Of a stretch of 60,089 nt of DNA, positions 3,632 through 22,615 are shown piece after piece. Source of the DNA: Acholeplasmatales bacterium. Lineage in GTDB: Bacteria > Bacillota_I > Bacilli_A > Acholeplasmatales > Anaeroplasmataceae. Where the stretch lies: the NCBI GenBank assembly GCA_017449215.1, contig JAFSJY010000069.1, forward strand, positions 1 through 60,089, read 5' to 3'. Positions within the stretch are counted from its first letter, which is position 1, and the number at the start of each line of letters is the position of its first letter. The translations under genes were made by a program, and so were the position numbers. A model generated the notes under the pieces. The model was not told the DNA's origin, ran no database searches, and worked only from the letters and a program-made list of their open reading frames with translations.

Positions 3632-3657
3632 AAATACCACCTCTAAGATAGTAATAT

Positions 3658-3713: not shown

Positions 3714-3743
3714 TAAAAAAGGCGAAGCACAATGTGCCTCGCC
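3714..3743 (-). terminator. Rho-independent terminator after the first LRR gene
   Basis: On the minus strand GGCGAGGCACA pairs with TGTGCTTCGCC (3721-3743), followed by a run of T (3720-3714). It lies 14 bases after the 1504-residue LRR protein's stop and ends the surface-protein operon. Confidence 0.85.
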
Positions 3744-3756: not shown

Positions 3757-6700
3757 TTAACCTAGGTCAATAATTCCATCTTGACATGATACTTTTGTTA
3801 TGCCCGAATAATCATACCAGCTATCTGAGCTTGGTCTAATTAATTCAAAATCAGAAATACTACCACTATAATTTATTGTAGTTAATGCAGTACAGCCATA
3901 GAATGAGCTATCACCTAATGTTTCTTCTACACCATTGCCTATTTCAACATATTCTAATGATGTACAATAACAAAATGCGTAATTGCCAATTCTCTTAACG
4001 CTATTTGATATTTTTACACTTTCTAATGAATTACAATTATAAAATGCATCCTCACCAATAGCTGTTACAGAATTAGATATTACTATACTTTTAATGCTCT
4101 TATTAATAAATGCATCCTCATTTATTTCATATTCTGTAATGATTTCATTACTTATTGTTACTGAATCAGGCAATACTAATTCAGTAGAATCTCCTACATA
4201 ATCAATTAGGTATACCTTTTTATTACCACTATTATCTAAACTCATGAATACATATCCATTATCATCTATAAAGATAGATGATGGATCATCTTTTCCAATT
4301 ATAGCTTTTGCATAACATGCAACATATCCAAAATCATCACTACCTAATTCAAATGCTAAATTTGATAAATTACGTACCTCATATAATCCACTGCAATTAT
4401 AGAATGCATCATCACCAATTGCCGTAATATTTTCTGGTATTGTTATTTGATGCAAGTGTACACAATTCTCAAATGTATTATCATCTATCATAGTTAATGA
4501 AGTAGGGATATTAATATTTCTTAATGAGTTACATCCCATAAATGCTTTATATCCAATTTCTGTAATATCGTCTGATAGAATAACATTTTCAATATTAGTA
4601 CAATCTCTAAATGCCTCAAATCTAATTATATAGTTAGATGTTAATGTAATAGTTTTTAAGCTTGTAGGAACGCTACTATTTACACTATAGCCATATCCAT
4701 ATCCGCCAAATAAATCACCTAAACAGAAAGGAATTCTAGGTAATGTAATGCTTTCTAATGAATCATTTGAATAATTAAATATTGAGTTATAGTATTCAAT
4801 AGTATTAGGAATTATTACAGACTTTAAATTACTATACCCACTAAATGCACCATCCCAAATATATTTACAATCAGGGTGGAATGCATCAAATTCAGTTATA
4901 GAATTAGAATCTAACATATAGAAATAATAGTATGGATTAGATTTAGTACCAAAATATAAACCATTTCTATATTCTAGCTTTGGTAAATCATAAACAATAT
5001 ATCCTAATGAATTGATAGTATCAGGCAATATTACTATTTCAATCTTTCTACATCCAGATATAATTGACGAACCATCATAATCAGGTATGCTTGTAATTGT
5101 TGTGTCACCTAAATCTACTTCTTTCAAATTTAAGCATTTATAGAATGCCATAGCGCCAAGGTTTGTTAAACTTGATGGTGCTACAAATGATTTCAAATTT
5201 GTACTAGCAAATGCTTGATAGCCTACTGTTGTAAGACTACTTGGAATTGTAATATTTGATAATGATTTGCATCCATTAAATGCATTTGCTCCAATTACTT
5301 CGATATTTGAATCTAGATTTACCTTTTGTAAATTAATACAATTTTGGAATAGCCCAGATTGTATTTCAATGTTAGGAATTGTAGCCTTTATTAAAGACTT
5401 ACATTCAGAGAATGCATAATAGCCAACTGATGTAATATTATTAGATAACGCAATATCATTTAATCCAGTATTATAGAATGCGTATTCTCCTATTTCAGTA
5501 ACTGAAGATGGAATAACAACAGTATTTAATTTAACACAACCAGAGAATAATGAATCAGCTATATAAGTTACACCATTTGGAATACTAATGCTCTTTAAAT
5601 TTTTACATTCAGAGAACGCACCCTCACCAATAGATGTTACTGTAGATGGAATACTAAATGATTCAAAAGGTAATCCTGCAAATTGGTAAGCACCAATTGA
5701 TGTTATACCCTCGCTTAAGGATACACTTGTAATAGAGCTATATTTCTTATTTCCATATGTGATGTCTCCGTCATCATCTATTAAATAAGAATTATTACTT
5801 CTTACCATTGGGTTAGAATCAGAATCACTAAATTGAACATTAGTCCAATCATTAATATAACCATCATAATATAAATTATCTAAATACACATCTGTAAATG
5901 CCATAGGACCAATAGATTCTACTGATACAGGAATATTTATTTCCTTAATTGATTTTCTTCCATAGAATGCTTTTTCTGGAATAGTTTCAATATTTCCAGT
6001 TAAATATACTTTAGTTAGCTTATTAGGAAGATCAAGACTATCATAAGAACCATAATAATTTGGAACTCCAAAATAATAAGCCAATACATTACCTAATACA
6101 GGAATAGATAATGATGTTATATGCTCTAAATTATAAAATGCTAATCTAGCAATTTCAGTAACATTAGTAGGTATTACTAATTCATCACCACATTCAATTA
6201 CATCCATTAATATTACATCTGATCCACTCTCATATGTAATTAAATTATTATTTGTATGAATATTAGAATTAGATTCAGATGTTACTATATTTAAAGCATA
6301 ATAACCAACATAGCCATAATTTGTTTTTGTAATTGATAATGAGCTATGATTAATTACTTCTACTAATCTATAACAATTACTAAAAGCATATGTGCTTATT
6401 GTTGTAAGTGTTGAAGGTAAAGTCACTTGAATAAGTGAATAACAATTATAGAAGGCATATGAGTCTATTTTTTTGGCTTTAGGGAATGATACATCTTCTA
6501 AAGCATAACAATTATAGAAGGCACCATCACCAATTGTCTCGCATTCTGTTATAGTAGCCTTCTTTAAAGAGTTACAAGTATAGAATGCATTAGTACTTAA
6601 AGTTTTACATTTTGCTAAATTAACCTCTTCTAGTGAAAAGCATCCTCTAAATGCTTCTTTATTGATTACCTCAACATTTTCTAAATTAATAGTCTTTAAA

Positions 6701-8271
6701 TTATTACAATTATAGAATGCTTTTTCTTCAATAGTTACTACATTATTATTTAATATAACTTCATTTAGATTTCTAAAATCTCTATTAGCGTCCACACTAA
6801 ATAAATTCTTATCAATGATGATTTTATAATCATCAATTGTAGGAATTGTAATAGTATTTAAGGTAGTATCTCCAACATAGGCAATAATTCTAGCATAATC
6901 AATATTAGCTTCCTTCTCCTTTTTATAAATGAAATCACCAATTGTAAATATACATTTTTCTTCATCTAAGGATGTATGAATTATTTGAGCATTCTTAGCT
7001 ACATAGCCATGTGATGTACTACCTTTAGAAAGTGATAATGATGATAAATTATATATTTCATATAAATGCTTAATACCACTACTTGAATCTTCACTTCTAA
7101 ATGAATATTCACCTATTTCACTAACACATGAAGGTATTGTTAGCACACTAAAATCCTTATCATAAAATGCATATTGATATATCTTATAATTTTCATTCTT
7201 AGTAGGTAATACTATTTCATTACTACTTCCCTTATATCCAACTAAATAATTAATATTATCAAGCTTTGTAAATACAAATCCATCCTGATCAACATCATAA
7301 ATAGATTTATCATTTATTGAAGTATGCACTACCTTTGAATACATACCAAGTCTACCATATGAAGAATTAGTAGCTGGTAATGTAATATTATTATTTCCTA
7401 AATCATATACCTCCAATAGCTTATGACAATTATAGAAACAATTATTAACAAGTGTAACCTCTGAATTAATAACTATACTAAATATATTAGTACAATCATA
7501 GAAAGCATAGCTAGCAATTTTCTTTAATGTCTTAGGGAATGTTACCTTCTCAATATTTCTCTTATCAGTAAATGCATATTGATTTATTTCAGTTACACCC
7601 TCAGGTATAACTAAATCATTTATACTAGTATCTAAAAGACCATCAATATAACATTCATCTAAATTAGAATAAAATTCAAACGGAATAAATTCATCCTTCA
7701 TTTTAAATTTAGCTGTTATATCTAAATCCTTATCTACCTTAAATGAATAATCCTCGTTAGGTGAGATTAAATCATCACCAAGATACCAACCTTTAAATTC
7801 ATAACCAATGTAAGGTCTAGCTACTAAATAAGCAGTATCATTATATCTATTATAAGTACCACTACCTGCTATACCAGCGGCCTCTGAATCACTTGTAAGG
7901 CTTATAGTATATGATATTAATTCATAATAAATATCAATAGTTACGTCAGTATCATCTGTAATATTCTTTTGTTCAAAGGCTTTAACTCTAAAGCCTTCTG
8001 CATCCATTGGTTTAGCATTAGTTTTATCACCGATATTACCAACTAATGTTTCCTTATATTGAGGTTGTTCTATATATTCACCATTATCATTTTCAAAATA
8101 GTGATTAACCTTATATTCCTTTTTACCAGTATTATATAATTCTTGAGGAACCTCAATTTTATAATCTGAATTATCTTCTTCGCCTCTATATTTTTCATTT
8201 TTAGAATTTGTACAAGAAGATAATAAAACTGCTATTCCTAAGAGGAATAAAATATTTCTTAATTTTCTCAT
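3757..8271 (-). CDS. BspA-type leucine-rich-repeat surface lipoprotein (1504 aa)
   Basis: A lipoprotein signal peptide ends in LLSSC with Cys20 as lipidation site. An N-terminal segment of about 50-190 holds an InlB B-repeat-like domain (GYEFKGWYLGDD near 160). From about 200 to the end run dozens of BspA/LRR_5-type repeats with the pattern IPxSVxxIGxxAFxxCxxL, broken by spacer blocks with GYVAKYA-like sequence. There is no LPXTG or C-terminal membrane anchor, so attachment is by the lipid. BspA-type repeats are surface binding modules for matrix, mucus or other cells. The gene follows its FecR-domain partner by ten bases and repeats the arrangement at 11.2-20.8 kb. The specific ligand cannot be read from sequence. 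Confidence 0.9.
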   Translation of the reverse strand: MRKLRNILFLLGIAVLLSSCTNSKNEKYRGEEDNSDYKIEVPQELYNTGKKEYKVNHYFENDNGEYIEQPQYKETLVGNIGDKTNAKPMDAEGFRVKAFEQKNITDDTDVTIDIYYELISYTISLTSDSEAAGIAGSGTYNRYNDTAYLVARPYIGYEFKGWYLGDDLISPNEDYSFKVDKDLDITAKFKMKDEFIPFEFYSNLDECYIDGLLDTSINDLVIPEGVTEINQYAFTDKRNIEKVTFPKTLKKIASYAFYDCTNIFSIVINSEVTLVNNCFYNCHKLLEVYDLGNNNITLPATNSSYGRLGMYSKVVHTSINDKSIYDVDQDGFVFTKLDNINYLVGYKGSSNEIVLPTKNENYKIYQYAFYDKDFSVLTIPSCVSEIGEYSFRSEDSSSGIKHLYEIYNLSSLSLSKGSTSHGYVAKNAQIIHTSLDEEKCIFTIGDFIYKKEKEANIDYARIIAYVGDTTLNTITIPTIDDYKIIIDKNLFSVDANRDFRNLNEVILNNNVVTIEEKAFYNCNNLKTINLENVEVINKEAFRGCFSLEEVNLAKCKTLSTNAFYTCNSLKKATITECETIGDGAFYNCYALEDVSFPKAKKIDSYAFYNCYSLIQVTLPSTLTTISTYAFSNCYRLVEVINHSSLSITKTNYGYVGYYALNIVTSESNSNIHTNNNLITYESGSDVILMDVIECGDELVIPTNVTEIARLAFYNLEHITSLSIPVLGNVLAYYFGVPNYYGSYDSLDLPNKLTKVYLTGNIETIPEKAFYGRKSIKEINIPVSVESIGPMAFTDVYLDNLYYDGYINDWTNVQFSDSDSNPMVRSNNSYLIDDDGDITYGNKKYSSITSVSLSEGITSIGAYQFAGLPFESFSIPSTVTSIGEGAFSECKNLKSISIPNGVTYIADSLFSGCVKLNTVVIPSSVTEIGEYAFYNTGLNDIALSNNITSVGYYAFSECKSLIKATIPNIEIQSGLFQNCINLQKVNLDSNIEVIGANAFNGCKSLSNITIPSSLTTVGYQAFASTNLKSFVAPSSLTNLGAMAFYKCLNLKEVDLGDTTITSIPDYDGSSIISGCRKIEIVILPDTINSLGYIVYDLPKLEYRNGLYFGTKSNPYYYFYMLDSNSITEFDAFHPDCKYIWDGAFSGYSNLKSVIIPNTIEYYNSIFNYSNDSLESITLPRIPFCLGDLFGGYGYGYSVNSSVPTSLKTITLTSNYIIRFEAFRDCTNIENVILSDDITEIGYKAFMGCNSLRNINIPTSLTMIDDNTFENCVHLHQITIPENITAIGDDAFYNCSGLYEVRNLSNLAFELGSDDFGYVACYAKAIIGKDDPSSIFIDDNGYVFMSLDNSGNKKVYLIDYVGDSTELVLPDSVTISNEIITEYEINEDAFINKSIKSIVISNSVTAIGEDAFYNCNSLESVKISNSVKRIGNYAFCYCTSLEYVEIGNGVEETLGDSSFYGCTALTTINYSGSISDFELIRPSSDSWYDYSGITKVSCQDGIIDLG
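3800..7650 (-). repeat. LRR-coding tandem repeat array 1
   Basis: The LRR gene's DNA is a degenerate array with a unit of about 69 bp (23 codons). It is recognisable on the plus strand by recurring AGAATGCAT-like tracts that encode the conserved NAFY/DAFY turn. The repeats are diverged, so this looks like an old expansion rather than a recent slippage product. Confidence 0.7.
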
Positions 8272-8281
8272 TTCATTCCTC

Positions 8282-11131
8282 CTAGTTATAAATTGTTACA
8301 GTTTGAATAGAAACAATGTAATTTCCATATGGTGATAATAAACAATCACCAATCTTACCACTACCTGTATTTACTCTCATATTTGTAAGATTATATAAGC
8401 AATAAATATTATAAGTTCCAACATTTGTTAATGTAGGCTCATCACTAGCCCAATTATTACCATTATCTACTGAATATAATACTGAATAATTGAAGTCAGA
8501 ATCATCTTCAAATGAAGTCATTATTCTAGATGGATTATATCCTTCTGAGTCATATTCAAGATTTAAATCAATCGGATTAGTTATTGAACCACTAGTAGTT
8601 CCAGCATCACCAAATTTTGCATAAACAAATTCTACACTACCTTCAATTGTTTCATATCCAGTCTTACTAATCTTATAAGTAAAATTAGCACTACCAGCTA
8701 CCTTTTCTGACACCTCTACATTAACATCCTCTAATAGAGTATGAGAGATACTATCTAAATATGTAGCATTCTTTAATAGATTAGTATATATTGTATAAAC
8801 CTCATCTAATGATGTTATAGTTGTGCCATCAGAAGATTCAACCTCGTAGGTTAATCCTGTTGATTCTCCCTCTAAATATAATTCATTTCCATCATTTGAA
8901 ATAATACTAATAACTGGAGATATCATATCTAGATTACTAGACGTAATAGTACTTAAAGCGATAGTTACCTTACGGCTACCTTCTACTACAACAGTACTTC
9001 CAACCTTATAATAAACTGTATATTCTCCTACTTCAGTTAACACTAATTCTGAACTATAATTTACTCCATCAATTGAATATAATACATTTTCTGTAGTATC
9101 AACAAAATTCATTAATATACCATCTTCATCATATTTAAATGTATATTCATCAGATCTAATTAAATATTCTGGATAGCCTACTGGAACCTCAGTAGAGAAG
9201 ATTATTCTAACCTTCTTTTCTGATAACAATCTTTCAGAATCTGGGAATCTAGTAAATGTTATTTCCATGAACTCATCTTCAATGATAGATAATGTTCCAT
9301 TTGAATTATATTGATTAATAGAATCATCTAAATAATTCTTTGGATAATTAACTAATATAGAATTATCCTCAAGACCAAATCTTTCTAATAATGTAGCGAT
9401 ACTTACAATATTACTAGCAGCACTACCTGTAATATCATAAAAATAATCATTATCACCTAAATTAGAAACATTATTTAGATTTCCAAATTTAATCCCATTA
9501 CTTAGTCTATAATCATTAAAAGTGAATGTAAATTCATCAACTATATCATAATCATCAAATGTAAAAGTTGCTGTAAATGTATTGATACCATTCTTTAAAT
9601 CAATATAGCCATCCATTGTATGCTCATATTCAAAGCTAATATTATTTGGCTCAAATTCAGTAACAGGATTATTTCCTCCTATTTGGAATTCCATACTGTC
9701 AAATAATGTATTAGCCTTTATGCCATTATATTTATTAAATGTCATCATACCATTTAGCATTAATACATTATCATCAAATATATCACTTGATACATATGGT
9801 GTATTATATACTAATTTACGTGAATTAATATTAATATTAAATGTAGGTTCATCATAATAATCCTTAATATTATCTGGTAAGATTAATTTAATTTCATATG
9901 AATCAATATCACTTGATACTCTTCCATCATAAGAGAAACTAATATCATCTAAATATTGCTTATCCTCTTCTGCAATTCCACTTAATTCAATATAATCTTT
10001 TAAATTAATGCCACTTAATGATTCTTCTAATGTCATACCAGAAATAGGATATAAATTTAGTTCTGATTTTAAAGAAACAATTATATTCTTTTTATAAATA
10101 TTAATTACTTCAAAATCTTCCTTATTATCATATCCATCACATACAATCTTGTAATATACTCTATAAATACCTGGTTCTGTATATTCAAAATTATTTGTTT
10201 CAGAATATGTAGTCATATTCTCGCTTCTATAATATACCTTAGCATCCTTATTATCGACATTTACACTAATCTTATGAGGATTGCCATCATAATAATCAAA
10301 ATATCCTTGTGAAGAATATGTTAAAGATGAATAAGTAACCTTAGTTTCTTCACTTATAGTATCAATAACCTTTTTATAGTCTTCCTCTGTAGGAGTTGAA
10401 ACTGTAATTTCAACCTCATCTAATTTATCATTAGCGTCATTTTCATCCTGATATTTATTATCAATACCATCTAACCAATTATCTGTTATTTGATTAAATT
10501 CTTCCTTTTTAATGATCTTGTCTTTATTAATCTTAACTTCTATTTTCTTATTTGATATATCAGTTAATTTACCCTTAACTAATTCGTTATTAATCTTATC
10601 AAATACAAATAATTCAGTAACACCCTTAAACACAGAATAAATTTGATGAAGAACATTATTAATCTCTCTAACATGTAATCCAAATACAGTACCACGTACT
10701 GCCATTACTGAATTATTAGATGATAAAAAGAATTCTTCCTCTAGACCTAATTTATTTTGAATTTCAGCTAATACAATTCCTTTTTCTACAAAGATATTTG
10801 TTTTATAGCTATCTTTACCTTCAGATTTTATATTAATTGTTGTATTTTCACCTAGATAAACATATTTATCCTCATCAAATTTAATAACTAAAACAGAATC
10901 GGCACCTATATTTAGTGTATCACCATCATATAGATTCATTCCTTTAAAGCATTTTAATTCTTCTTTGTCATCTGATACAGTTGCACTACCTTCCATTCCA
11001 ACTATCTTAATAGATCTAGCTGAATCTAGTAATGAACCATTATTTTCTCTATCATCTCCACAAGATGTTAAAGATAATAATATCAAGACAAATGATAAGA
11101 TTGTTGTTACAAAAAAGATTAACTTTTTCAT
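8282..11131 (-). CDS. FecR-domain lipoprotein (949 aa), copy 1
   Basis: A lipobox LTSC with Cys24 follows a strong hydrophobic signal. Residues of about 40-190 form a FecR-like domain: a YDGDTL step, a FDEDKYVYLGENT strand, then the family hallmark SVMAVRGTVFG near 145. The rest (about 270-949) is a series of beta-rich Ig-like modules with repeated YSIDGVNY and VYYK motifs. It is a clear paralogue of the protein at 18096-20777, with near-identical stretches in the FecR region. FecR domains sense or bind surface signals in other bacteria; here the domain is outside the cell on a lipoprotein, with no anti-sigma segment. It starts with a good AGGAGG site downstream of a terminator, so it may have its own weak promoter or rely on read-through. 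Confidence 0.87.
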   Translation of the reverse strand: MKKLIFFVTTILSFVLILLSLTSCGDDRENNGSLLDSARSIKIVGMEGSATVSDDKEELKCFKGMNLYDGDTLNIGADSVLVIKFDEDKYVYLGENTTINIKSEGKDSYKTNIFVEKGIVLAEIQNKLGLEEEFFLSSNNSVMAVRGTVFGLHVREINNVLHQIYSVFKGVTELFVFDKINNELVKGKLTDISNKKIEVKINKDKIIKKEEFNQITDNWLDGIDNKYQDENDANDKLDEVEITVSTPTEEDYKKVIDTISEETKVTYSSLTYSSQGYFDYYDGNPHKISVNVDNKDAKVYYRSENMTTYSETNNFEYTEPGIYRVYYKIVCDGYDNKEDFEVINIYKKNIIVSLKSELNLYPISGMTLEESLSGINLKDYIELSGIAEEDKQYLDDISFSYDGRVSSDIDSYEIKLILPDNIKDYYDEPTFNININSRKLVYNTPYVSSDIFDDNVLMLNGMMTFNKYNGIKANTLFDSMEFQIGGNNPVTEFEPNNISFEYEHTMDGYIDLKNGINTFTATFTFDDYDIVDEFTFTFNDYRLSNGIKFGNLNNVSNLGDNDYFYDITGSAASNIVSIATLLERFGLEDNSILVNYPKNYLDDSINQYNSNGTLSIIEDEFMEITFTRFPDSERLLSEKKVRIIFSTEVPVGYPEYLIRSDEYTFKYDEDGILMNFVDTTENVLYSIDGVNYSSELVLTEVGEYTVYYKVGSTVVVEGSRKVTIALSTITSSNLDMISPVISIISNDGNELYLEGESTGLTYEVESSDGTTITSLDEVYTIYTNLLKNATYLDSISHTLLEDVNVEVSEKVAGSANFTYKISKTGYETIEGSVEFVYAKFGDAGTTSGSITNPIDLNLEYDSEGYNPSRIMTSFEDDSDFNYSVLYSVDNGNNWASDEPTLTNVGTYNIYCLYNLTNMRVNTGSGKIGDCLLSPYGNYIVSIQTVTIYN

Positions 11132-11167
11132 AATTTCCTCCTTTTTATTAGGATTTTATAATAAGCC

Positions 11168-11209
11168 AAAAATCCGACTACTCTATCATAGAATAATAAT
11201 CGGATTTTT
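11168..11209 (-). terminator. Terminator between the two FecR/LRR gene pairs
   Basis: AAAAATCCGA (11168-11177 on plus) pairs with TCGGATTTTT (11200-11209). The minus transcript ends in the T-rich arm; a T run also exists on the plus side, so it may work both ways. It divides the locus into cyclase-FecR-LRR and FecR-LRR units. Confidence 0.75.
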
Positions 11210-11216
11210 GATTTTT

Positions 11217-14200
11217 TTATTCAACGCCCCAAATTACTATTTCGCCATTAACATAATGCCAGTAATTATTTTCTGTATCAGTCGGAGCTTCTTCACTATA
11301 GAAATACTTTGTAGCATTCGATATAGCCGTATCATTACCACTTACATATAAACCATCAATTTTATAGAATTGTTCTTTTGTTCCTTCATAGAATATCTTT
11401 TCTAGAGTAACCTTATAGAATGTATATCCAGATTGATATCCAATATCAGTTACAGAAACTGGGATAACAATTGTCTTTAAAGATGAATTGTTACAGAAAG
11501 CATAACTACTTATAAAGTTACCCTTAGTAATGATTACAGTTGTTAAATAATCATTATGTGAGTAGTCTTTATAACTATATCCAAAATAATTATATGGATC
11601 TCCTACATAAGCAGCATATCTAGCTGGGCCCTTATATGTTTCTACTCTATAGCAATAATAGAATGGATGGAACTCATCATTTACTACTGTGTCAGCAATT
11701 TCTACATGGCTTAATGAGTAGCAATAGCCAAATGCATATCGACCTAATTTTTTTACTCCATCTAATATTTTTACTGATGTAATATTAGAATATGCAAAAG
11801 CATAACCATTTATTTTTAAATCAGTATATGTAACGCCATTATGTGTGAATGATCCAGGTATTACTAAATCAGTATCGTTTTTAGTATAGCCAATTACGCA
11901 TGATTCAGTGCCAATAGCAAATACATAACCACTTTCATCAAATACTAGAATTGAATCTTCTGTGTAATCTTCATGTATTTTTATTGCATAATACGCTACA
12001 TAACCATTACCAGTATATCCAGTACCTAAATCTAATGATGAAGCATTATAAATTTCAACTAAATGACAGCATTCATTAAATGCATCTGTACCAATAGCTG
12101 TTACACTTGCAGGAATCTTAATTGAATATATGTTCTTATTTTGATAGAACGCCTTTTCGGCAATTTCATATGAGTTGATAGTTGTTTCATTATAAGTAAA
12201 TGAATTAGGTAACTCTAAGCAATATAAATCACCAGTATAACCAATTAAATATCCTTTTTCTCCATCATATAAGAATCTATAACCATTAGCATCTGTAATA
12301 ATTGCTGAAGGATCATCTAATGATGTATGAACTGCCTTTGCATAGTATGCAACCTTACCATTATCTTCAGAACCAAGAGTTAATGTTGATGTAGATAAAT
12401 TATAAACTTCTACTAAAGCATAGCATCCATCAAATGCGTCAGTTCCTATTGATTCAAGTGCTGCTGGAAGTGTAATTGTACTAATTAATCTACAATTTTT
12501 AAATGCACTTCCCCCAATTGTTGTAACTCCATTTGGAATATTAATTGACTTTAATGAAGTACAACCACTAAAAGCAGATCCTCCAATTGATGTTACTGAT
12601 TCAGGAATTGTTATAATACTTAAGTTAGCATCATTTTCAAACATCTCATCACAGATGGCAGTTAAGTTTCCTTCAAATACTACTTCTTTAAGGTTTGGAC
12701 AATCAGATAAAATGTCATGATCCCCAGTGAAATCACCTTTAAATATAACTTTTTCTAATTTCTTATTATTGTTTATTGATAAGTAGCTTATAGATGTTAT
12801 TGAAGCAGGTATTGTAAGATTTACAAATCCACAAGACTGTAATGAATTAGATTCAATTGATGTTACATTATCTGGAATAGTTAAACTACTTAAAGATGAA
12901 CAACCAGAGAATAATCCACCAGAAATACTAGTTAAAGCTTCGCCTAATGTTACATCTTTAAGTGCTGTACAGTCAGCAAATACATAATAAATACGCTTAT
13001 CTATATCACATTCTATATCTAATGTAGTAAGCTTCTTACAGCATCTAAATGCTTCTTTACCAAAAGATGTAATAGTTGATGGTAAAGTAACACTTGTTAA
13101 TCCACTATTATAGAATGCACATTCACCGATTGATGTTACATTATCAAAATTAACAGTAGTTAAAGATTCACAATCCATAAATGCAAAATCAGGAATAGCT
13201 ACATTCTTTGTAAAATTAAGCGTTGCTAAAGATGTACAACCATAGAACGCACTAGTAACTTGCGCTCTTATAGTTGATTGAGTTGTAAATGAGAATGATC
13301 CACTAAAAGTAACTTCTTCTAGCTTTTTACTATTACGGAATGCATTTTCTTTTAAAGCAACGCCACTAGCTAAAGTGATTGACTCAAGACCAGTGTTCAT
13401 AAATGCCCATCTATCAATTTGTGCAATTTTTTCGAAATTTACAGTTTTTAGTTTAGAACAATTTTCATATGTGTATTCTGAAACTCTAGATCCACTACCT
13501 AAATAATATACAGATTCAAGATTAGTACAGCCTCTAAACGCATACTTGCCTGTATATGCATAAGTTGATGCTGAACCATAAACTCCCATATCATATTTGA
13601 TGTTTACTGATGTTAAATTTACGCAACCCTCAAATACACCACATATAGGATTTTCTGGATGGTAACTACTATAGCTATCATCTCCATTTTGTATTAATAA
13701 GTTATTTGGAAGTGTAAGAGTTGTAAGCTGTGTATTACTAAACGCACCCTTATATAGTTTAAGTTTTACTCCTGCAGTATTAGGCCAAGTAATAGTTTTT
13801 ATTCCTGAATTCATAAATGCATATGGATTAATTTGATCTACTGTATCAGGAATTGAAATACTCTCTAATGATGTACAGCCATAGAACATTCTTGTATTTA
13901 TACATACACTACCATTTGGAAGTACTACAGTTTCAAGTGATGTACAGCCATAGAAAGTACCTGTAGAATAATCATATTTAGTATAATAATTACTTGTTGA
14001 ATCTAATTTATATAAATTTGCGCTTACTAAATTAACACAATTCTTAAATGCATCATTTCCTAGATAATTCATTGATGTTGTTTTAACTTCAAATTCTCTT
14101 ATACCAGAATTTTCAAATGCACTAGCTTCTATTCTTGTAATTGTAGCAGGTAGAATAATATTAGCATTTTTACAATCTTTAAATGCACTTTCTCCTATTG

Positions 14201-17200
14201 TAGTGATATCTCCAGTTATTTCGATTTTTGTAATTGTAGAAATACCTTCAAATGCAGATGCAGGAATTGTTGTTCCACCATTAATTACAACAGTCTTTAA
14301 TTTGCTTGATACTTCAGAATTACTCTTACCAAAAATAGCTTGTCCAAACACATTTTCACTTACATAAGGTAACTCAATATATTGTAAATTTGTTAATCCA
14401 TATAAGCATCCATCGTAATCTGTACAAGTTGATGGAATAACTATTTTTCTTAGGTTAGTACATCTACTAAACGCACCAGCAAATACCTTCTCACAATCAG
14501 GATGAACTACACATTCAAAGATTTGTGGAGTTCTAGCTTTAATTAACCACTTATATGGATTTTCAGCAGTACCAAAATAAGATCCATTATCATATGTAGT
14601 AAGTACCATATTATCGCATTTTTCAAATGTTGTTGATGCAATACTATTTATACCTGTAGGGAATGTGATTGTTGTTAAATTTACACATCCACCAAATAAA
14701 TATTCATCAAATTTAGTTACACTTGTCTCTTTTAATAATATAGTTTCTAAATTTTCACAATTGTAGAATGCATATTTACCTAAGCTAGCTAAGCTCTTAG
14801 GTATATTAATATTGAATAATAATCTACAATTACTAAATGCTTTTTCGCCAATTGAAGTGATATCTCCATTAATAGTAACGCTAATTAAGTTTCTACATCC
14901 CTCAAATGTATTATTATTTATTTCTATAACACCATTAGGCAATACAATACTCTTAATTAATGTGTTAGCAAATACATATTCACCAATATAAGTAACTTCA
15001 CTTGGAATATTAATTTCTTTTAAATTTTTACAATTATAGAATGCATAATCATTAATTTCTTCTAAGCTACTAGGTAAAACAACTTTTTTCATATTGAAAT
15101 TAGCAAATTGATAATCTTCAATACATGTAACGCCTTCTGGAACAATAATTTCTTCTAATTCTTCATAATCATTACCATTTTTGAATAATACCTTTGAATC
15201 ACATACCATCATAGGATTAGATTCTTTATAATCAAATTCAATGTTGCACCAAATTTCTACGCTATCAACATATATATTCTTAATCTTTGTATCTCTAAAT
15301 GCACCATTGTCGATTTCAACACCGCCTTTGAAATATAGATTTTCTATATTTTCACATTCGTAGAATGCATTTTCTGGAACATAACTAATTCCTTCGCCAA
15401 AGATAATTGTTTTTAATGTTTCCGGAACAAATTCTTTATTATGAGTATATTCTTTATCATAATTACTTGTTGGATAAGGAACACCGAAGAAATATCCTAG
15501 GCAACAATTAGTAGTGTAAGTATTTCCATCTACATAAGTGTATTGCATTAAATTAAGCTCTAATTCTTCCATAGTACATCCACATAATGTACCTCTGTTA
15601 ACTGCAGCAACATCGCTAGGAATAACCACATTTTTAGCACTTCTATCGATTACACCAATGAAAGTTTTACCTTTCTTGCTGTCACTATATGTGTAGATAT
15701 TTCTTTCAGTATCTTCATTAATTATAGATACGTACGTTTGAGTACCATTAACTACATTCTTTGCATAATATGAAATAAGACTATAACTAGGTCCTGATGC
15801 TCCTGCAGTTAATGTAAATGCAGTTGATCTATTAACAACTTCAACTAGGTTAACACAGTATTGGAATGAATTTTCACCTATTTGACTAGATGAAGTAATT
15901 GTTTCAGGAATAGTTAATCTTATTAATCCATAACAATACTCAAATGCATTTTTGCCAATGCTTGTTACTTTAGGGAAATTTACATCTCTAAGCTTATAAC
16001 AATTAGAAAATGCCTTATACTCAATTTTTGTAGCATTAGCTAAATTTGCTTGATCTAAATTGTAGCAATTTTGGAATGCATATTGACCAACTGTTTCTAC
16101 TTTAGATAAATCAACTGTTCCAAGCTTATAACAGTAACAGAATGCTTCATCTCCAATGTATGTAACATTTGATAAATCAATTGACCCTAAAGATGAACAT
16201 TCATCGAATGCTCTAGCACCAACTGTTTCTATTTTTGAAGCTTCAACTGTTTTTAGCTTTTTACAGCCTCTAAATGCATCTTCATTAATAGTAGTTACAT
16301 TTTTCATTTTTACAGTTTCAAGGTTTTCACACCAAGCAAAAGCTTCACCACTAATAGTTGTTACATTCTTTAAATCAACACTCTTTAAATTACTGCATGA
16401 ATAGAATGCATCATATTCAATAGTTGTAACATAATTGTTTAGTGTAACAGTCTCAATATTATAATTTTGATAGAATAACTGATATCCTAAAACAATGCTA
16501 TAGTTCTCACCAAATGATGGAATAACTACGTCCTTACTACTACCAAGATAACTTTCTAATGTTACTATTTTTTCATCTTCATCAACTGAATAGATGAAAT
16601 CCTTCTTGTCGTCATCGACTTCTTGCTGATTTTCACCAGTAATAACTCTTGATGCGCTATAAGCTACGTAACCGTAATCGCTAGATCCTACTTCTATTGG
16701 TAAATTTGAATTATTATATACTACCTTTATGTAATAGCTATTATAAAATGCATCTTCTTCTATTGTTGAAACACCTTTACCAAGTGTAACTTGTAATAAA
16801 CTATAACAATATCCAAATGCATAATCTTCAATTATAGTAACGCTATCAGGAATAACTATTTCTTTAATTTTAGAATGATAGAATGCATATTCTCCTATTT
16901 CTCCAACATTATTTCCAAGTGTAACTTGTAATAAACTATAACAATCTCCAAATGCATAATCACCAATTCTTGTAACGCTATCAGAGATTACTACTTCTTT
17001 TAGACTATTGCAACCATAAAATGCACTATCACCAATTCCTAATACAGCATCAGAAATTACTACTGATTCAATTGGTAATCCTACATAAGTATTAGAATTT
17101 GAGAAAGCATAATTATCTATGTAATACTCTGGTATTTTAGATGTGGCACTAGGTAATACTACATTTTTATCATCGCCAACATACTTGTACAAATACCATT

Positions 17201-18083
17201 TATCGTATTCTTCATTATAGTAGAATACGAAATCTCCAACAGCTGTAAGATCAGATGGTCCTTCACTTATGTTTTTAATCCATAAATCATCTTCATCTAC
17301 ACCAAGTGCAGAAAATAAACCAGTTAGATTTGCAGTTTTATCAGGCACAAAGAATTCATATAAATCTGTATATTCGACAACGTCTTTGCCAATTTCCATG
17401 TCTACATTCTTTATAGTTAACGAATTCAATTTTGACTCTCTAAATGCATAATCACCAATTTTCTCTAATGATTCTGGTAAAGATACAATTACTACTTTTG
17501 AATTTTCAAATGCGTTATCAGCAATTTCTGTTACACCATCAGGTATAACTAAATCAATAGGATAGCCTTCCTTTAGACCTGTGACAATACATTCAGTTTC
17601 ATCTGATGTAAATTCTAAATATTTAAATTCATCCTTTAAGCTAAATCTAGCTTCTACACCATTTTCTCCTTCATTACACTTATATTGTAATTGAAGTGAT
17701 AATAATTTATCTCCTAGCCACCAGCCTTCAAAATCGTAGCCGATATTCACAGTTGCAGTTAAGAATCTTACGTTACCAATCATTTCTGATTGACCAGATC
17801 CAGCATTAGTTTCAACTAAATCTTCATCTCCAAGTGAGATTGCTGCATCTGATACGTCTAGTGTTCTTTCAACATCATCTGGATTTGGATTATCATTGTT
17901 ACTATCACCTTCAATAATAACACTAGGCAATTCAATTTTAGGTAGAGAATCGTCTACTTCTCCTCTAAAATGTTCTTTAGTTACCACGTTATCTGTTGTA
18001 GATGATTCATTTTGATTATTATCACATGCTACTAGAGTAATAGTGGCAAATAATGCTAAAACTGATAATATTTTCTTTTTCAT
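11217..18083 (-). CDS. Giant BspA-type leucine-rich-repeat surface lipoprotein (2288 aa)
   Basis: The signal peptide ends in LVAC with Cys20 as lipidation site. An acidic linker follows, then an InlB-like GYDFEGWWLGD block near 115. From about 155 to 2200 the protein is built of BspA/LRR_5 repeats (IPDGVTEIADNAFENSK and similar), with spacer segments like those in the shorter paralogue at 3757-8271. Such a stacked LRR solenoid would reach far from the cell surface. It lies 12 bases after the second FecR-domain gene and shares its transcript with the CHASE2 cyclase. There is no wall-sorting motif. A role in adhesion or recognition of host or dietary polymer is inferred from the family. Confidence 0.9.
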   Translation of the reverse strand: MKKKILSVLALFATITLVACDNNQNESSTTDNVVTKEHFRGEVDDSLPKIELPSVIIEGDSNNDNPNPDDVERTLDVSDAAISLGDEDLVETNAGSGQSEMIGNVRFLTATVNIGYDFEGWWLGDKLLSLQLQYKCNEGENGVEARFSLKDEFKYLEFTSDETECIVTGLKEGYPIDLVIPDGVTEIADNAFENSKVVIVSLPESLEKIGDYAFRESKLNSLTIKNVDMEIGKDVVEYTDLYEFFVPDKTANLTGLFSALGVDEDDLWIKNISEGPSDLTAVGDFVFYYNEEYDKWYLYKYVGDDKNVVLPSATSKIPEYYIDNYAFSNSNTYVGLPIESVVISDAVLGIGDSAFYGCNSLKEVVISDSVTRIGDYAFGDCYSLLQVTLGNNVGEIGEYAFYHSKIKEIVIPDSVTIIEDYAFGYCYSLLQVTLGKGVSTIEEDAFYNSYYIKVVYNNSNLPIEVGSSDYGYVAYSASRVITGENQQEVDDDKKDFIYSVDEDEKIVTLESYLGSSKDVVIPSFGENYSIVLGYQLFYQNYNIETVTLNNYVTTIEYDAFYSCSNLKSVDLKNVTTISGEAFAWCENLETVKMKNVTTINEDAFRGCKKLKTVEASKIETVGARAFDECSSLGSIDLSNVTYIGDEAFCYCYKLGTVDLSKVETVGQYAFQNCYNLDQANLANATKIEYKAFSNCYKLRDVNFPKVTSIGKNAFEYCYGLIRLTIPETITSSSQIGENSFQYCVNLVEVVNRSTAFTLTAGASGPSYSLISYYAKNVVNGTQTYVSIINEDTERNIYTYSDSKKGKTFIGVIDRSAKNVVIPSDVAAVNRGTLCGCTMEELELNLMQYTYVDGNTYTTNCCLGYFFGVPYPTSNYDKEYTHNKEFVPETLKTIIFGEGISYVPENAFYECENIENLYFKGGVEIDNGAFRDTKIKNIYVDSVEIWCNIEFDYKESNPMMVCDSKVLFKNGNDYEELEEIIVPEGVTCIEDYQFANFNMKKVVLPSSLEEINDYAFYNCKNLKEINIPSEVTYIGEYVFANTLIKSIVLPNGVIEINNNTFEGCRNLISVTINGDITSIGEKAFSNCRLLFNINIPKSLASLGKYAFYNCENLETILLKETSVTKFDEYLFGGCVNLTTITFPTGINSIASTTFEKCDNMVLTTYDNGSYFGTAENPYKWLIKARTPQIFECVVHPDCEKVFAGAFSRCTNLRKIVIPSTCTDYDGCLYGLTNLQYIELPYVSENVFGQAIFGKSNSEVSSKLKTVVINGGTTIPASAFEGISTITKIEITGDITTIGESAFKDCKNANIILPATITRIEASAFENSGIREFEVKTTSMNYLGNDAFKNCVNLVSANLYKLDSTSNYYTKYDYSTGTFYGCTSLETVVLPNGSVCINTRMFYGCTSLESISIPDTVDQINPYAFMNSGIKTITWPNTAGVKLKLYKGAFSNTQLTTLTLPNNLLIQNGDDSYSSYHPENPICGVFEGCVNLTSVNIKYDMGVYGSASTYAYTGKYAFRGCTNLESVYYLGSGSRVSEYTYENCSKLKTVNFEKIAQIDRWAFMNTGLESITLASGVALKENAFRNSKKLEEVTFSGSFSFTTQSTIRAQVTSAFYGCTSLATLNFTKNVAIPDFAFMDCESLTTVNFDNVTSIGECAFYNSGLTSVTLPSTITSFGKEAFRCCKKLTTLDIECDIDKRIYYVFADCTALKDVTLGEALTSISGGLFSGCSSLSSLTIPDNVTSIESNSLQSCGFVNLTIPASITSISYLSINNNKKLEKVIFKGDFTGDHDILSDCPNLKEVVFEGNLTAICDEMFENDANLSIITIPESVTSIGGSAFSGCTSLKSINIPNGVTTIGGSAFKNCRLISTITLPAALESIGTDAFDGCYALVEVYNLSTSTLTLGSEDNGKVAYYAKAVHTSLDDPSAIITDANGYRFLYDGEKGYLIGYTGDLYCLELPNSFTYNETTINSYEIAEKAFYQNKNIYSIKIPASVTAIGTDAFNECCHLVEIYNASSLDLGTGYTGNGYVAYYAIKIHEDYTEDSILVFDESGYVFAIGTESCVIGYTKNDTDLVIPGSFTHNGVTYTDLKINGYAFAYSNITSVKILDGVKKLGRYAFGYCYSLSHVEIADTVVNDEFHPFYYCYRVETYKGPARYAAYVGDPYNYFGYSYKDYSHNDYLTTVIITKGNFISSYAFCNNSSLKTIVIPVSVTDIGYQSGYTFYKVTLEKIFYEGTKEQFYKIDGLYVSGNDTAISNATKYFYSEEAPTDTENNYWHYVNGEIVIWGVE
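11300..17600 (-). repeat. LRR-coding tandem repeat array 2
   Basis: A degenerate array with a unit of about 69 bp covers most of the 2288-residue LRR gene, of the same kind as array 1. The two arrays share repeat consensus and spacer modules, so recombination between them is possible and would change repeat number. Confidence 0.7.
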
Positions 18084-18095
18084 GATTTACCCTCC

Positions 18096-20777
18096 TTACT
18101 CAGTAATTGTGATATGTTCAATATCAATAATGAAGTTTCCATTAGCTGCTAGGCTACTATGCTTTACATTTGAAACTGAACCATCAACTAATGTTGTTCC
18201 ATCGTTACCATTATCTACGAAGCAATATAATACATAAACATCATATTCTCCAGCGCTAGTAAGGGCTGGTGCTTTTTTAGTCCAAGTCTTTCCTTCATCT
18301 ATTGAATAATATGTTTCATAATTAATGAAATAATCTTCTAATGAACAGCTAATTCTAGATGGAATAGCTTGTGGAACATCATTTAAGCTTATTTCATAAT
18401 CATTTGGAAGTGTGACATTTACAAAATTTGCATCCATACTTCCATCCAATACAGTTATATCTGAAATTGTTCCAAGCTCTGAATTTTCAAATCTGACTGT
18501 TCCACTTAGTGTCTCATATCCATCTGCTTCTATTGTATAGTTGAAATTAGCACTATTTGCTTTTTTATTAGATACAGTTACAACTGCATCAATTGTTTCA
18601 CCTGAAATAGAATCATAGAATACAGAATTCTTAATTAAATTAGTATATACAGTATAAGCATCATCTAATGAAGTGATTGTTCCACCATTAGTTGATGTTA
18701 CATATCCTTCAAAATTAGAAGCTCCTGCTTCATCATATTTCCAGTAAATTTCATTGTTATCATTTGATAAAATATGTACTGGATTAGTTACAAACATCTT
18801 ATTATCAAATGTAATTACTCCCTCACCTGCAGTAACATCAATATATTCATAATTTGTTATGTTATATGCTTCGTTGCTTTCATTAACTATAACCTTATAA
18901 TATACCTTATGTGTACCAGCTTCGACATATAAATCGTCAACAAAGTTTGTACCATCAATTGAATATTTAACAGGGAAATCACTTGTAACAAAGTTCATTT
19001 TTACACCATTAGCATTTTTAGCTGGGTTATATGCATAACTTGTTTTACTAATGCTAAATGTTGCATATTCACCTTCTTCTGGCTTCTCTGCTTTAACAGT
19101 AACATAAATTGTTTCATCAAAGCCCTTAGTAGTTGCATTAGGGAATACTAAGAAGTTTAATTTTACATAACCATATGCAGCATCCTCTAATTCAATTGTT
19201 GTTCTTCCATCAAATTCTGCTGTATCATTTCCTTTAATATCATATGGATAATTAATTAGCATTGTTGTTAAGTCTAAAACATCTAGACCAAATGCGCTTA
19301 ATAAATCACTACCTTCAGATTCATAAGCTCCACCACCAACGCTTGTTACAAAGCTTGAAGCATCATTAATGTAGTAAACATTATTACTTAATTGTTCAAT
19401 CCCTGCATTTGATGCAGCAATTGCATATCCTGAATCTTCTCTTGTGTCACTGAATAAGAAATTAACGTCAACATTTAATGTAACTGTAGAAAATTCAAAT
19501 GTCACATTAAGTGTGTTTTTACCATCAACAAGTTCAATATAACCATCAGTTTTTTTGTTATAATTAATTGTTACATTAACAGTATCATCAACTAAAGTAT
19601 TATTAATATAGAATTCTCTATTTTCTAATATTGTATCTATTTTTACACCATTAAATCTATTGAAATCATTATCGCTTAAATTTGATATATCAAGTATAGA
19701 AGCCTTTGAGTTGTTATCATAATATATATGATCACTTTCTAATTTTACTGTAGGATTTGTAATATAGATTACTTCAAAATCCTCTTTTGTATCATATCCT
19801 TCACATTGGATTCTATAATATACTCTATATTGTCCTGGTGAATAGAATTCAAAAGTATTATCATCTTGATAATTTATTCCATCAAGTGAATATTTAACTG
19901 TAGCTCCATTTGTGATTGGAGTTACTTCAATCTTATGAGCATTTCCATCATATTCACCAAAGAAGCCTTTTGAAGTATATTCAATATCTGAATAAGTTAC
20001 ATCAGTTTCAACAATGTTAACTACTTGATCAAAGTCATCTTTTGTTGGTTTAGTTACTGTAATTTGAACCTCGTCTAATTTATTATTAGCATCATCTGGA
20101 TTATCAAATTCATTATTAACATCATTTAACCAATTAGATAAGATATCCTTAAAGTCATTATTAGGAATAACATGATCCTTAGGAACCTTAATTTCAATCT
20201 TCTTATTAGAAAGATCTGTTAGCTTACCCTTAATAATTTGACCATTAACCTTATCAAATACAACAAGCTCAGTAACACCTCTATATACTGCATATGTTTC
20301 AATATATTGGCTACCATCATCTCTAACTGTAACACCGAAGATTGTACCTCTAACTGCCATTACTGAGTTATTAGATGATAGGAAGAATTCCTCATCCTCT
20401 CCTAGCTTATTTTGGATTTCAGCAAGTACAACACCCATTTCAACAAATACATTTGTCTTAAATTTATCTTTTCCTTCTGATTTAATATTTACCTTAGAAT
20501 TTTCACCTAGATAAACATATTTATCCTCATCAAATTTAACAACGATTACTGAATCCTTGCCAACATTTAATGTATCACCATCATATAGATTCATACCCTT
20601 GAAGCAATCTACTGTTTCTGTATCATCAGTAACAGTAGCTGAGCCTTCAATTTGAACAATCTTAATATTTCTAGCTGAATCTAATAATCTTTCTCCATTA
20701 TTAGATCCTCCATCACTACATGATGCTAAAAATATACAAAATATAAAGCATATAATAAAACCAATAAACTTTTTCAT
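18096..20777 (-). CDS. FecR-domain lipoprotein (893 aa), copy 2
   Basis: The signal peptide ends in LASC with Cys20. The FecR-like domain spans about 35-190, with CFKGMNLYDGDTLN, KYVYLGENS and SVMAVRGTIFG almost identical to copy 1. Beta-sandwich Ig-like modules follow, with KYSIDGxNY and VYYK motifs near 290-330 and 620-660. The start ATG overlaps the stop of the CHASE2 cyclase gene by one base (TAATG), showing tight translational coupling. Because FecR domains and CHASE2 domains are both extracytoplasmic sensory modules, the lipoprotein may present a signal to the cyclase. That interaction is inference. Confidence 0.87.
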   Translation of the reverse strand: MKKFIGFIICFIFCIFLASCSDGGSNNGERLLDSARNIKIVQIEGSATVTDDTETVDCFKGMNLYDGDTLNVGKDSVIVVKFDEDKYVYLGENSKVNIKSEGKDKFKTNVFVEMGVVLAEIQNKLGEDEEFFLSSNNSVMAVRGTIFGVTVRDDGSQYIETYAVYRGVTELVVFDKVNGQIIKGKLTDLSNKKIEIKVPKDHVIPNNDFKDILSNWLNDVNNEFDNPDDANNKLDEVQITVTKPTKDDFDQVVNIVETDVTYSDIEYTSKGFFGEYDGNAHKIEVTPITNGATVKYSLDGINYQDDNTFEFYSPGQYRVYYRIQCEGYDTKEDFEVIYITNPTVKLESDHIYYDNNSKASILDISNLSDNDFNRFNGVKIDTILENREFYINNTLVDDTVNVTINYNKKTDGYIELVDGKNTLNVTFEFSTVTLNVDVNFLFSDTREDSGYAIAASNAGIEQLSNNVYYINDASSFVTSVGGGAYESEGSDLLSAFGLDVLDLTTMLINYPYDIKGNDTAEFDGRTTIELEDAAYGYVKLNFLVFPNATTKGFDETIYVTVKAEKPEEGEYATFSISKTSYAYNPAKNANGVKMNFVTSDFPVKYSIDGTNFVDDLYVEAGTHKVYYKVIVNESNEAYNITNYEYIDVTAGEGVITFDNKMFVTNPVHILSNDNNEIYWKYDEAGASNFEGYVTSTNGGTITSLDDAYTVYTNLIKNSVFYDSISGETIDAVVTVSNKKANSANFNYTIEADGYETLSGTVRFENSELGTISDITVLDGSMDANFVNVTLPNDYEISLNDVPQAIPSRISCSLEDYFINYETYYSIDEGKTWTKKAPALTSAGEYDVYVLYCFVDNGNDGTTLVDGSVSNVKHSSLAANGNFIIDIEHITITE

Positions 20778-22615
20778 TATGCCTTACCCTCCATACTTTC
20801 GTATCCTTCTATTTCAATAACCTCAAAGCACTTAATTGGCTCCTTCTTATTTTTAAACATCCTATCGCCAGCATCTATAACCTTAATTCTATTCTTTAGC
20901 ACATCATAAACATCCTTAGATATTAATACCTGGCTTCCACCAGCTGATGCTTCTATTCTAGATGCAGTATTTACTGTATCACCAATTGCTGTAAAGTCCA
21001 TTCTAGTCTTAGAACCGATATTTCCAATTACGGCATCACCATAATGAACACCAACACCAAATTCAAGCTTCTTATTATATTTTTCTAATACATAATCACA
21101 GATTGCTTTTCCTTCTTTAACAATACCAAAGGCTGCACATACTGCTTTAAAAATATAATCATCTAGATCTACTGGGGCATTAAATATTGCCATTACACAG
21201 TCACCAATAAATTTATCTACCATTCCACCAAATCTAAATACTTGATTAGTTGCCATTTCTAGATAACCATTTAGAATATCAACAACTTGCTCTGGATCTA
21301 GCTCCTCACTCATCTTTGTAAATCCTCTAATATCTACAAATAGACAAGCAACGTTTCTCTTTCTTCCACCTAAGCTCATAGCATCCTTTTGCTTATCAAC
21401 TAACGCTTCTGCGACATCAGGTGATATATATCTCTTAAATGTTCCAATAACCTCTCTCTTATGCTTATATTCGTTATAATAATGGTTAATAATGATTATT
21501 ACGAACGCAAGTATCAAAGTAAATATAGGTAATGATATGAAATAATATAATTTACATGAATGCATTATAATAGCTAAAATGAATTCTAATCCTATACCTA
21601 AGGCAAAGGCTCCTATTCCAATGTAGAATGCAAGTGACGCCATTAGGAATACAATTCCAAATATAACAATCGTATTTATTAAAATTAATCCAAACGTATT
21701 AATAGGTAAGTATAATTCATCATTTAATAAAGATTGAATTACATTACACTGAACCTCAATACCAAACATCTCACCAATTGGAGAATTATAAATATCATTT
21801 GAAAGACCAGTATCGACCGCACTAGCATATGAACCAAATAATACAATTGAGTTACTTCTGAATTTTTGTTTAAAATCATTATTGTTAGCTTCTTCTATTA
21901 AATCCTTCATAGAAATATAGTTAAAGCCAGACATTACATTCTTAACCTTACCATCACCACTATAATTTAATTCGGGTGCGGCATAATATTTAAAATAATA
22001 TGAAGTTTTCTTTTCGTAATTCTTTATTTCCTTATTTGTGTTATTAGCATAAATTGAATAAATAGAATATGCTAAGCTATCGTAGTTTTCTCCTCTTAAA
22101 TATGTTTTTCTTATTGCCTCATCATTATCAGTAATAGCATCTACATATCCGATAGACTTAGCACTATTATAGATTTCTTCTGATAATCCATATGGTGCCT
22201 CATCTCTACTCATACCGTTTACGCCTAATACAACATTTTGTCTTTTCATTGCATTAGCTAAATTAACATCTACAGTATCACATCCATATGCCTTATTAAA
22301 AATGACATCAAATCCTATTACAGATGGGATACAATCATTGTCAGCCCACATATTTAATATATCTGCGAAATATTGTCTATATTCAATTGGATTATATGCA
22401 TCATACTTCTCAATAGTATCATCATCTATTCCAACGATATATATTTCCTTTGCTCTTTCAGACTTATGCTGAAACATAGAATCCGATAAATCATTATCCA
22501 ATGAATTAAATGGATTCAATACTCCAGATAACGCAGATAATGTCAAAATAAATATTGCCACTATTCCCGCAAATATTAAATTTCTAACCCTAAATTTAAA
22601 AATTTTAGACTTCAT
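20777..22615 (-). CDS. CHASE2-domain class III adenylate/guanylate cyclase
   Basis: The protein has 612 residues if translation starts at ATG 22615. Order: a TM helix near 10-30, an extracytoplasmic CHASE2 domain of about 35-290 (KEIYIVGIDDDTIE, VIGFDVIFNK), three TM helices of about 300-380, and a class III cyclase domain of about 415-600. The metal aspartates are in LFVDIRGF and KFIGDCVMAIF. The lysine of VDKFIGD suggests ATP as substrate, and the transition-state Asn and Arg are in AIGDTVNTASR. All look intact, so it should make a cyclic nucleotide in response to an external cue. An upstream TTG start is rejected because the promoter -10 sits right before it. CHASE2 cyclases are common in Proteobacteria, Cyanobacteria and Spirochaetes and unusual in Bacilli. 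Confidence 0.9.
   Translation of the reverse strand: MKSKIFKFRVRNLIFAGIVAIFILTLSALSGVLNPFNSLDNDLSDSMFQHKSERAKEIYIVGIDDDTIEKYDAYNPIEYRQYFADILNMWADNDCIPSVIGFDVIFNKAYGCDTVDVNLANAMKRQNVVLGVNGMSRDEAPYGLSEEIYNSAKSIGYVDAITDNDEAIRKTYLRGENYDSLAYSIYSIYANNTNKEIKNYEKKTSYYFKYYAAPELNYSGDGKVKNVMSGFNYISMKDLIEEANNNDFKQKFRSNSIVLFGSYASAVDTGLSNDIYNSPIGEMFGIEVQCNVIQSLLNDELYLPINTFGLILINTIVIFGIVFLMASLAFYIGIGAFALGIGLEFILAIIMHSCKLYYFISLPIFTLILAFVIIIINHYYNEYKHKREVIGTFKRYISPDVAEALVDKQKDAMSLGGRKRNVACLFVDIRGFTKMSEELDPEQVVDILNGYLEMATNQVFRFGGMVDKFIGDCVMAIFNAPVDLDDYIFKAVCAAFGIVKEGKAICDYVLEKYNKKLEFGVGVHYGDAVIGNIGSKTRMDFTAIGDTVNTASRIEASAGGSQVLISKDVYDVLKNRIKVIDAGDRMFKNKKEPIKCFEVIEIEGYESMEGKA

Follow-up and report, generated by a model that had tools for sequence, protein, structure and literature searches.

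The contig JAFSJY010000069.1 of an Acholeplasmatales bacterium (assembly GCA_017449215.1), analysed here over its whole length of 60,089 nucleotides and called the window, carries on its minus strand a locus in which the gene for a CHASE2 class III cyclase is followed by two pairs of genes, each encoding a FecR-domain lipoprotein and a giant LRR lipoprotein. This locus is probably a Gram-positive form of CHASE2/FecR cell-surface signalling, with an outside-in route that ends at the cyclase. The evidence lies in the domains, the intact active site, the operon structure, the conservation of gene order and the co-variation between parts of a mosaic, all of which can be read from the sequence. A sequence-only reading of positions 3757-22615 had earlier proposed an outside-in cyclic-nucleotide system; the gene order, the intact residues and the apparently shared transcription unit bear it out in part, and the signalling itself is what we infer, with good and now strengthened support, as the best explanation. 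The linkage of CHASE2 and FecR is already known in Proteobacteria (PMC5192318) and Campylobacterota (PMC9239204), and the window holds its Gram-positive version; that reading had missed these reports, the upstream genes for TIM-barrel and GAF-HD-GYP proteins, and the mosaic split inside FecR.

The five-gene locus and its proteins

The five open reading frames, all intact, lie 5′ to 3′ on the minus strand in the order cyclase, FecR1, LRR1, FecR2 and LRR2. They are given below with the predicted signals around them, the promoter and terminator entries being consensus matches and promoter-like matches being no commoner than in shuffled sequences.

22714..22748, minus strand: terminator-like hairpin of 14 pairs, closing the upstream unit
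22676..22704, minus strand: promoter-like site TTGAAT-17-TATAAT with TG before the -10 (extended -10), 5′ of the cyclase (consensus match only)
20777..22615, minus strand: CHASE2 transmembrane class III cyclase with predicted adenylate-type active site (Pfam, residues, start and ribosome-binding site)
18096..20777, minus strand: FecR1 lipoprotein, with a PupR-like FecR domain (about residues 38-219), an Ig-like domain and a further extracellular tail (Pfam, model, 6ovk, lipobox)
11217..18083, minus strand: LRR1, a BspA-type LRR lipoprotein of 2288 residues, co-varying with the FecR1 tail (Pfam)
8282..11131, minus strand: FecR2, a second FecR lipoprotein with a tail of a different type (Pfam)
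3757..8271, minus strand: LRR2, a BspA-type LRR lipoprotein of 1504 residues (Pfam)
3721..3743, minus strand: terminator-like hairpin of 10 pairs (7 G-C) with a T run, after LRR2, marking the operon end

The stop codon of the cyclase and the start codon of FecR1 share exactly one base (TAATG), as had been described before, and the intergenic gaps downstream of FecR1 are 12, 85 and 10 bases. No good terminator is found between the five genes and no strong promoter between the cyclase and the lipoprotein genes, so that the five genes apparently form a single operon in which the cyclase is not transcribed separately. Lipoprotein signals (LASC, LVAC, LTSC and LSSC) start all four non-cyclase proteins, which, with the intact reading frames and the Pfam matches, confirms the content of one CHASE2 cyclase and two FecR/LRR lipoprotein pairs.

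The cyclase combines CHASE2 (8.6e-31, 107.9 bits) and Guanylate_cyc (1.6e-24, 87 bits) in one chain, with membrane segments, placed by hydropathy, flanking CHASE2 at 24-56 and 320-400 of the 631-residue open reading frame. A TTG at 22672 would lengthen the frame, but the likely start, and the one preferred here, is the ATG at 22615, which has GGGGAAAAGG in front of it as a purine-rich ribosome site; the cyclase coordinates of the sequence-only reading are therefore correct. The metal, substrate and transition-state residues D428, K468, D472, D540, N549 and R553 (numbered from this ATG) are intact, as that reading had stated. Among 86 aligned CHASE2 cyclases, both metal Asp residues, the substrate Lys, the Asn and the Arg never vary, and 83 of the sequences have the substrate Asp. 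A Lys/Asp substrate pair marks adenylate-type class III cyclases, and on this basis the predicted product is most likely cyclic AMP (cAMP). The closest solved catalytic domain is that of Pseudomonas CyaB (3r5g, 1.1e-45), and no other class III cyclase was found in the genome (assembly of 2.05 Mb in 88 contigs, 98.67% complete).

The FecR domain (PF04773) is recognized by Pfam with 28.6 bits in the 893-residue protein and 25.1 bits in the 949-residue protein (cut-off 24). The modelled region of FecR1 from residue 65 to 219 matches the cell-surface-signalling domain of PupR (6ovk; Z 12.1, root-mean-square deviation 3.6, 129 residues aligned) and also a putative anti-sigma protein, both well above unrelated rows; when the whole FecR protein was compared by sequence with solved structures, no relative was found, and the fold match comes from the model only. 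An Ig-like domain is modelled at 265-339. Confidence in the full FecR1 model is low outside the FecR domain (mean pLDDT 55), and the tail past the Ig-like domain is left uninterpreted for that reason. In six relatives (G001, G003, G005, G020, G022 and G024) the FecR N-terminus is apparently a membrane anchor without a lipobox. A role as anti-sigma factor is rejected: FecR1 resembles the FecR/PupR regulators in the fold of its FecR domain, but it starts with a lipoprotein signal and lacks their cytoplasmic anti-sigma domain, and no sigma factor gene is present among the neighbouring proteins scanned. FecR1 and FecR2 are thus FecR-domain proteins and not FecR anti-sigma regulators. The two giant proteins contain 17 and 11 Pfam LRR_5 stretches, which together with the lipobox identify them as BspA-type LRR lipoproteins.

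Conservation and mosaic structure of the cassette

Conservation of the gene order in relatives had been set beforehand as a test of the sequence-only reading, and the order was found in eight. A cyclase match is present in 11 of the 27 genomes of the genus, and the order cyclase-FecR-LRR occurs in seven relatives (G001, G003, G005, G006, G008, G020 and G024), with different flanking genes in each, as well as in G144, which belongs to another family. That the chromosomal site varies argues that the cassette has repeatedly been selected or transferred. In G025 and G018 the cyclase is more divergent and is accompanied instead by TIM-barrel and GAF-HD-GYP genes. Across the 55 genomes of the family, FecR is found in 11, the cyclase in 11 and both in 10 (Fisher 4e-9, a value that kinship among the genomes inflates). 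CHASE2 occurs in 13 of 160 genomes of the order and in four of 395 genomes of the class, where FecR is found in five and both in three. The earlier statement that a CHASE2 cyclase is unusual in Bacilli is therefore right for the class, but does not extend beyond Bacilli, as such cyclases are common in Clostridia and in some Paenibacillus.

A profile scan of genome contigs, from which the best 80 further loci were kept, gave loci mostly from Lachnospiraceae, Oscillospiraceae and other Clostridia, and also from Paenibacillus and one Erysipelotrichaceae. With five loci from the order and class searches added, 82 had a usable cyclase. Within six genes of the cyclase, FecR is found in 53 of these loci, a GAF-HD-GYP protein in 32 and an AP_endonuc_2 TIM barrel in 29, with at least one of the three in 68, and these neighbours are co-oriented with the cyclase in 115 of 118 cases. 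For example, the TIM-barrel and GAF-HD-GYP genes lead straight into the cyclase in G005, and G025 has abutting or overlapping genes for cyclase, TIM barrel, GAF-HD-GYP and FecR-like proteins. The conserved set in the window therefore exceeds 3757-22615, since TIM-barrel and GAF-HD-GYP genes are also present at 29839-32032.

Comparison of ten cassettes part by part reveals a mosaic. Identity is 80-93% in the catalytic domains, 52-77% in CHASE2 and 55-78% in the FecR domains, and ranges from 32 to 83% in the FecR tails and LRR proteins. The identities of the FecR tail and the LRR protein are closely correlated (r = 0.96, Mantel p = 0.0002), also when G024 and G144, the nearest to the window in tail and LRR, are left out (r = 0.81, p = 0.0006), and those of the FecR domain and its own tail are not (r = 0.01). 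Relative to G003, CHASE2 of the window is 77% identical and its FecR domain 78%, but its FecR tail only 39% and its LRR protein 35%; relative to G024, CHASE2 is 63% identical, but tail and LRR both reach 83%. The switch in identity falls near FecR residue 240-260, a domain boundary between the FecR and Ig-like domains. A single protein of 1596 residues contains both FecR and LRR in L150, a locus from Oscillospiraceae, and L164 shows weaker LRR matches. The simplest reading of these patterns is a constant cyclase-FecR core carrying an exchangeable unit of FecR tail and LRR protein. The two pairs of the window, earlier described as duplicated, are indeed paralogous (FecR domain 72% identical), but a recent tandem duplication is rejected, as the tails are only 38% and the LRR proteins only 35% identical; the second pair is of a different type, with no close counterpart among those sampled.

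Candidate receivers and turnover enzymes

Two further genes of the window may, as judged from their predicted domains and residues, encode the proteins that read and remove the messenger:

29839..31284, minus strand: GAF-HD-GYP protein, candidate cyclic-nucleotide receiver and/or phosphodiesterase (Pfam, adjacency, PDB profile)
31259..32032, minus strand: endonuclease-IV-like TIM barrel with a nine-ligand metal set, candidate phosphodiesterase (Pfam, conservation, endonuclease IV (EndoIV) alignment, model)

The GAF-HD-GYP protein is the candidate reader of the cyclase output. The solved structures closest to its GAF domain include cGMP- and cAMP-binding GAF domains (PDE5, cyaB2, PDE2A and PDE10A; PDB profile), and its HD-GYP motifs (HDxGK and HHExxxGxGYP) are complete and conserved in nearly all of 33 sequences. 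The TIM barrel aligns with EndoIV and MJ1311 (model pLDDT 94.7), and its metal ligands H61, H102, E141, D168, H171, H194, D203, H205 and E234 are conserved, corresponding to the nine metal ligands of EndoIV (H, H, E, D, H, H, D, H, E). The fold alone gives no substrate, because Foldseek returned sugar epimerases and EndoIV alike.

Some relatives carry a different candidate. A stand-alone CNB protein with a phosphate-binding motif occurs in six cyclase-bearing relatives and in no cyclase-less genome of the genus (Fisher 0.0016), and CNB proteins linked to cyclases keep the phosphate-binding cassette FGEMALLDNDKRSATV. The stand-alone CNB gene adjoins a channel-like gene with an RCK domain; this pair is absent from the window and, within the genus, is present in cyclase-bearing genomes only. 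Examples lie at L096:2039-3711, L097:8076-9736, L098:5777-7428, L099:7611-9256 and L100:464-2121, and such pairs are possibly split cyclic-nucleotide-gated channels. The window has, at 32226-34664, a gene for an Mbeg1-like domain fused to a D-Ala-D-Ala-ligase-like ATP-grasp, whose homologue comes after the channel-like RCK gene and the stand-alone CNB gene in relatives.

Among the other genes that recur near the scanned cyclases are those for proteins with a metallo-beta-lactamase fold (on its own or joined to GAF-GGDEF), for exported NHL-repeat proteins, and for CNB domains in fusion with a PP2C phosphatase, with DUF2225 or with a sodium/sulphate symporter. For instance, a metallo-beta-lactamase, GAF and GGDEF fusion (L162:11789-13492), of a kind seen in several loci, lies immediately 3′ of a CHASE2 cyclase, which suggests cross-talk between cAMP and cyclic di-GMP, and in Paenibacillus (L151:7331-14199) a CNB-sodium/sulphate symporter fusion lies just upstream of the CHASE2 cyclase and FecR.

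Proposed signalling route and alternative explanations

For the route proposed here, the direct contacts, the product, the direction of signalling, the ligand and the receiver are what we infer. The giant LRR lipoprotein would bind something outside the cell, and the tail of the partner FecR lipoprotein would dock onto it; the membrane-held FecR domain would then pass its state to the extracellular CHASE2 domain, which would set the activity of the cytoplasmic cyclase, with cAMP most likely made. The GAF-HD-GYP protein, and perhaps the EndoIV-like TIM barrel, may read the messenger, remove it or both, and CNB-domain proteins are candidate receivers in some relatives. The FecR tail and the LRR protein would form an exchangeable specificity unit on the constant cyclase-FecR core, two different units serving one cyclase here. 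A wider proposal is tentative, and we doubt it more than we favour it: that tail and LRR are a polymorphic, horizontally exchanged receptor cassette, with which strains belonging to one genus would sense external partners that differ from strain to strain (molecules of host, food or neighbouring cells) via the same cyclic-nucleotide pathway; in this genome the pathway would work without a CRP-type receptor, and the GAF-HD-GYP protein would couple cAMP to a further nucleotide messenger. For a long time, no input has been known for CHASE2 and FecR domains in most bacteria. Here the two are conserved and translationally coupled, and the outer module is separable, so that experiments can ask which part binds the ligand and which contacts the cyclase. 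The findings also point to a cyclic-nucleotide system that extends across gut and soil Bacillota (Lachnospiraceae, Oscillospiraceae, Paenibacillus and some Bacilli), beside which candidate receivers and degrading enzymes recur.

The nearest known systems share parts of this arrangement. In Campylobacterota, a cluster of CHASE2 adenylate cyclase, FecR, phosphodiesterase and TPR genes has been described (PMC9239204), in which the cyclase adjoins an exported FecR-domain protein, as in the window, and a phosphodiesterase-type enzyme, for which the window offers candidates, and which has moved horizontally. It has an outer membrane FecR protein and a TPR protein, whereas the window has Gram-positive lipoproteins and giant LRR proteins, with no TPR protein among the neighbours scanned; the phosphodiesterase candidates here are GAF-HD-GYP and EndoIV-like enzymes, and the swappable tail-LRR unit is a further difference. 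Similarly, the BiofilmReg operon of Burkholderia joins a FecR gene to a CHASE2 sensor gene, but there CHASE2 is on a histidine kinase with a response regulator rather than on a cyclase, and FecR carries LysM (PMC5192318). The Sinorhizobium meliloti CHASE2 cyclases CyaD1, CyaD2 and CyaK likewise sense an external protein, a plant protein, through a surface protein (PMC13001267), and a FecR-domain protein belongs to their regulon (PMC5498481); their sensor is the beta-barrel NsrA and their receiver the CRP-type Clr (PMC13001267), a type of receptor not found in the genome of the window. No description of the Gram-positive CHASE2-FecR version, of such a system across Bacillota, of the LRR partner or of a mosaic FecR was found in the open-access papers searched.

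Several observations weigh against the route proposed here. The TIM-barrel and GAF-HD-GYP genes of the window lie in their own predicted transcription unit, apart from the cyclase. The CRP-like receptor that the sequence-only reading suggested looking for was not found, there being no CRP/CNB protein (PF00027 match) in the 98.67% complete assembly, where a small gap is possible. In the GAF domain the NKFDE motif (NKX(n)FX3DE) is partial, with N and F kept, Lys replaced by Ala and Asp not conserved. The ten cassettes are a small, phylogenetically linked sample, and the co-variation of tail and LRR could reflect a swap as one linked segment rather than binding. In addition, the S. meliloti FecR protein SMc02177 is dispensable for signal perception by the CHASE2 cyclases (PMC5498481), and because it is not needed for perception, FecR could be an output rather than a sensor.

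A serious though unlikely alternative takes this last point further, with the FecR/LRR lipoproteins as targets or structural products, the cyclase sensing through CHASE2 itself and the operon co-expressing surface adhesins. BspA-type LRR lipoproteins occur widely as adhesins. In Campylobacterota, the cyclase clusters with a FecR-domain outer membrane protein that has no tested role (PMC9239204). Against this, FecR is translationally coupled to the cyclase and occurs in the family almost only with it, the FecR fold is that of a dedicated signal-relay domain, and a FecR domain that stays constant while the tail changes with the LRR protein fits a relay better than an adhesin. That LRR and FecR tail are diverse mainly because surface antigens escape immunity or phages, with no bearing on signal specificity, is rather improbable: the fall to about 35% identity in the distal parts, set against 80-93% in the catalytic domains, and the breakpoints inside FecR suit such escape, but escape alone predicts neither the close match of tail and LRR (r = 0.96) nor the FecR-LRR fusion in Clostridia. 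That unrelated surface genes came together behind a cyclase by chance, for which only the prior that neighbours can be accidental speaks, is scarcely credible, as it is contradicted by an order kept in eight relatives at different sites and by the 53 of 82 loci that have FecR close to the cyclase.

It is also very doubtful that the cyclase output is partner switching through the genes at 22757-27601 (a SpoIIE phosphatase-HATPase fusion, a STAS protein and (p)ppGpp enzymes). These lie directly upstream of the cyclase on the same strand, and L128, L131 and L195 have CNB-PP2C, RsbW-like HATPase, STAS and GGDEF proteins in a run with a CHASE2 cyclase; but a terminator and a new promoter-like site separate the window's genes from the cyclase, its phosphatase has no CNB domain, and in relatives the genes are not beside the cassette, the phosphatase orthologue being on other contigs. 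As a conserved link in this lineage, this output is therefore rejected, though it recurs in those three Clostridia loci.

The genes themselves encode a membrane protein in which a SpoIIE-type PP2C phosphatase is fused to an RsbW-like HATPase (23780-25618), and a separate SpoT-like hydrolase (HD_4) and RelA/SpoT synthetase, whose genes overlap by 8 bases (25624-27277) and share one predicted unit with the STAS protein (27284-27601). In the three Clostridia loci (L128:1514-6705, L131:8777-13967 and L195:5583-11553) the genes for CNB-PP2C, CHASE2 cyclase, RsbW-like HATPase, STAS and GGDEF proteins stand in one run, a candidate cAMP-controlled partner-switching pathway. Beyond the operon end, at 2264-3679, an HTH regulator gene and a HipA_C-like gene resemble a toxin-antitoxin pair travelling with the cassette, and the same pair also follows the cassette of G024 (68% and 71% identical).

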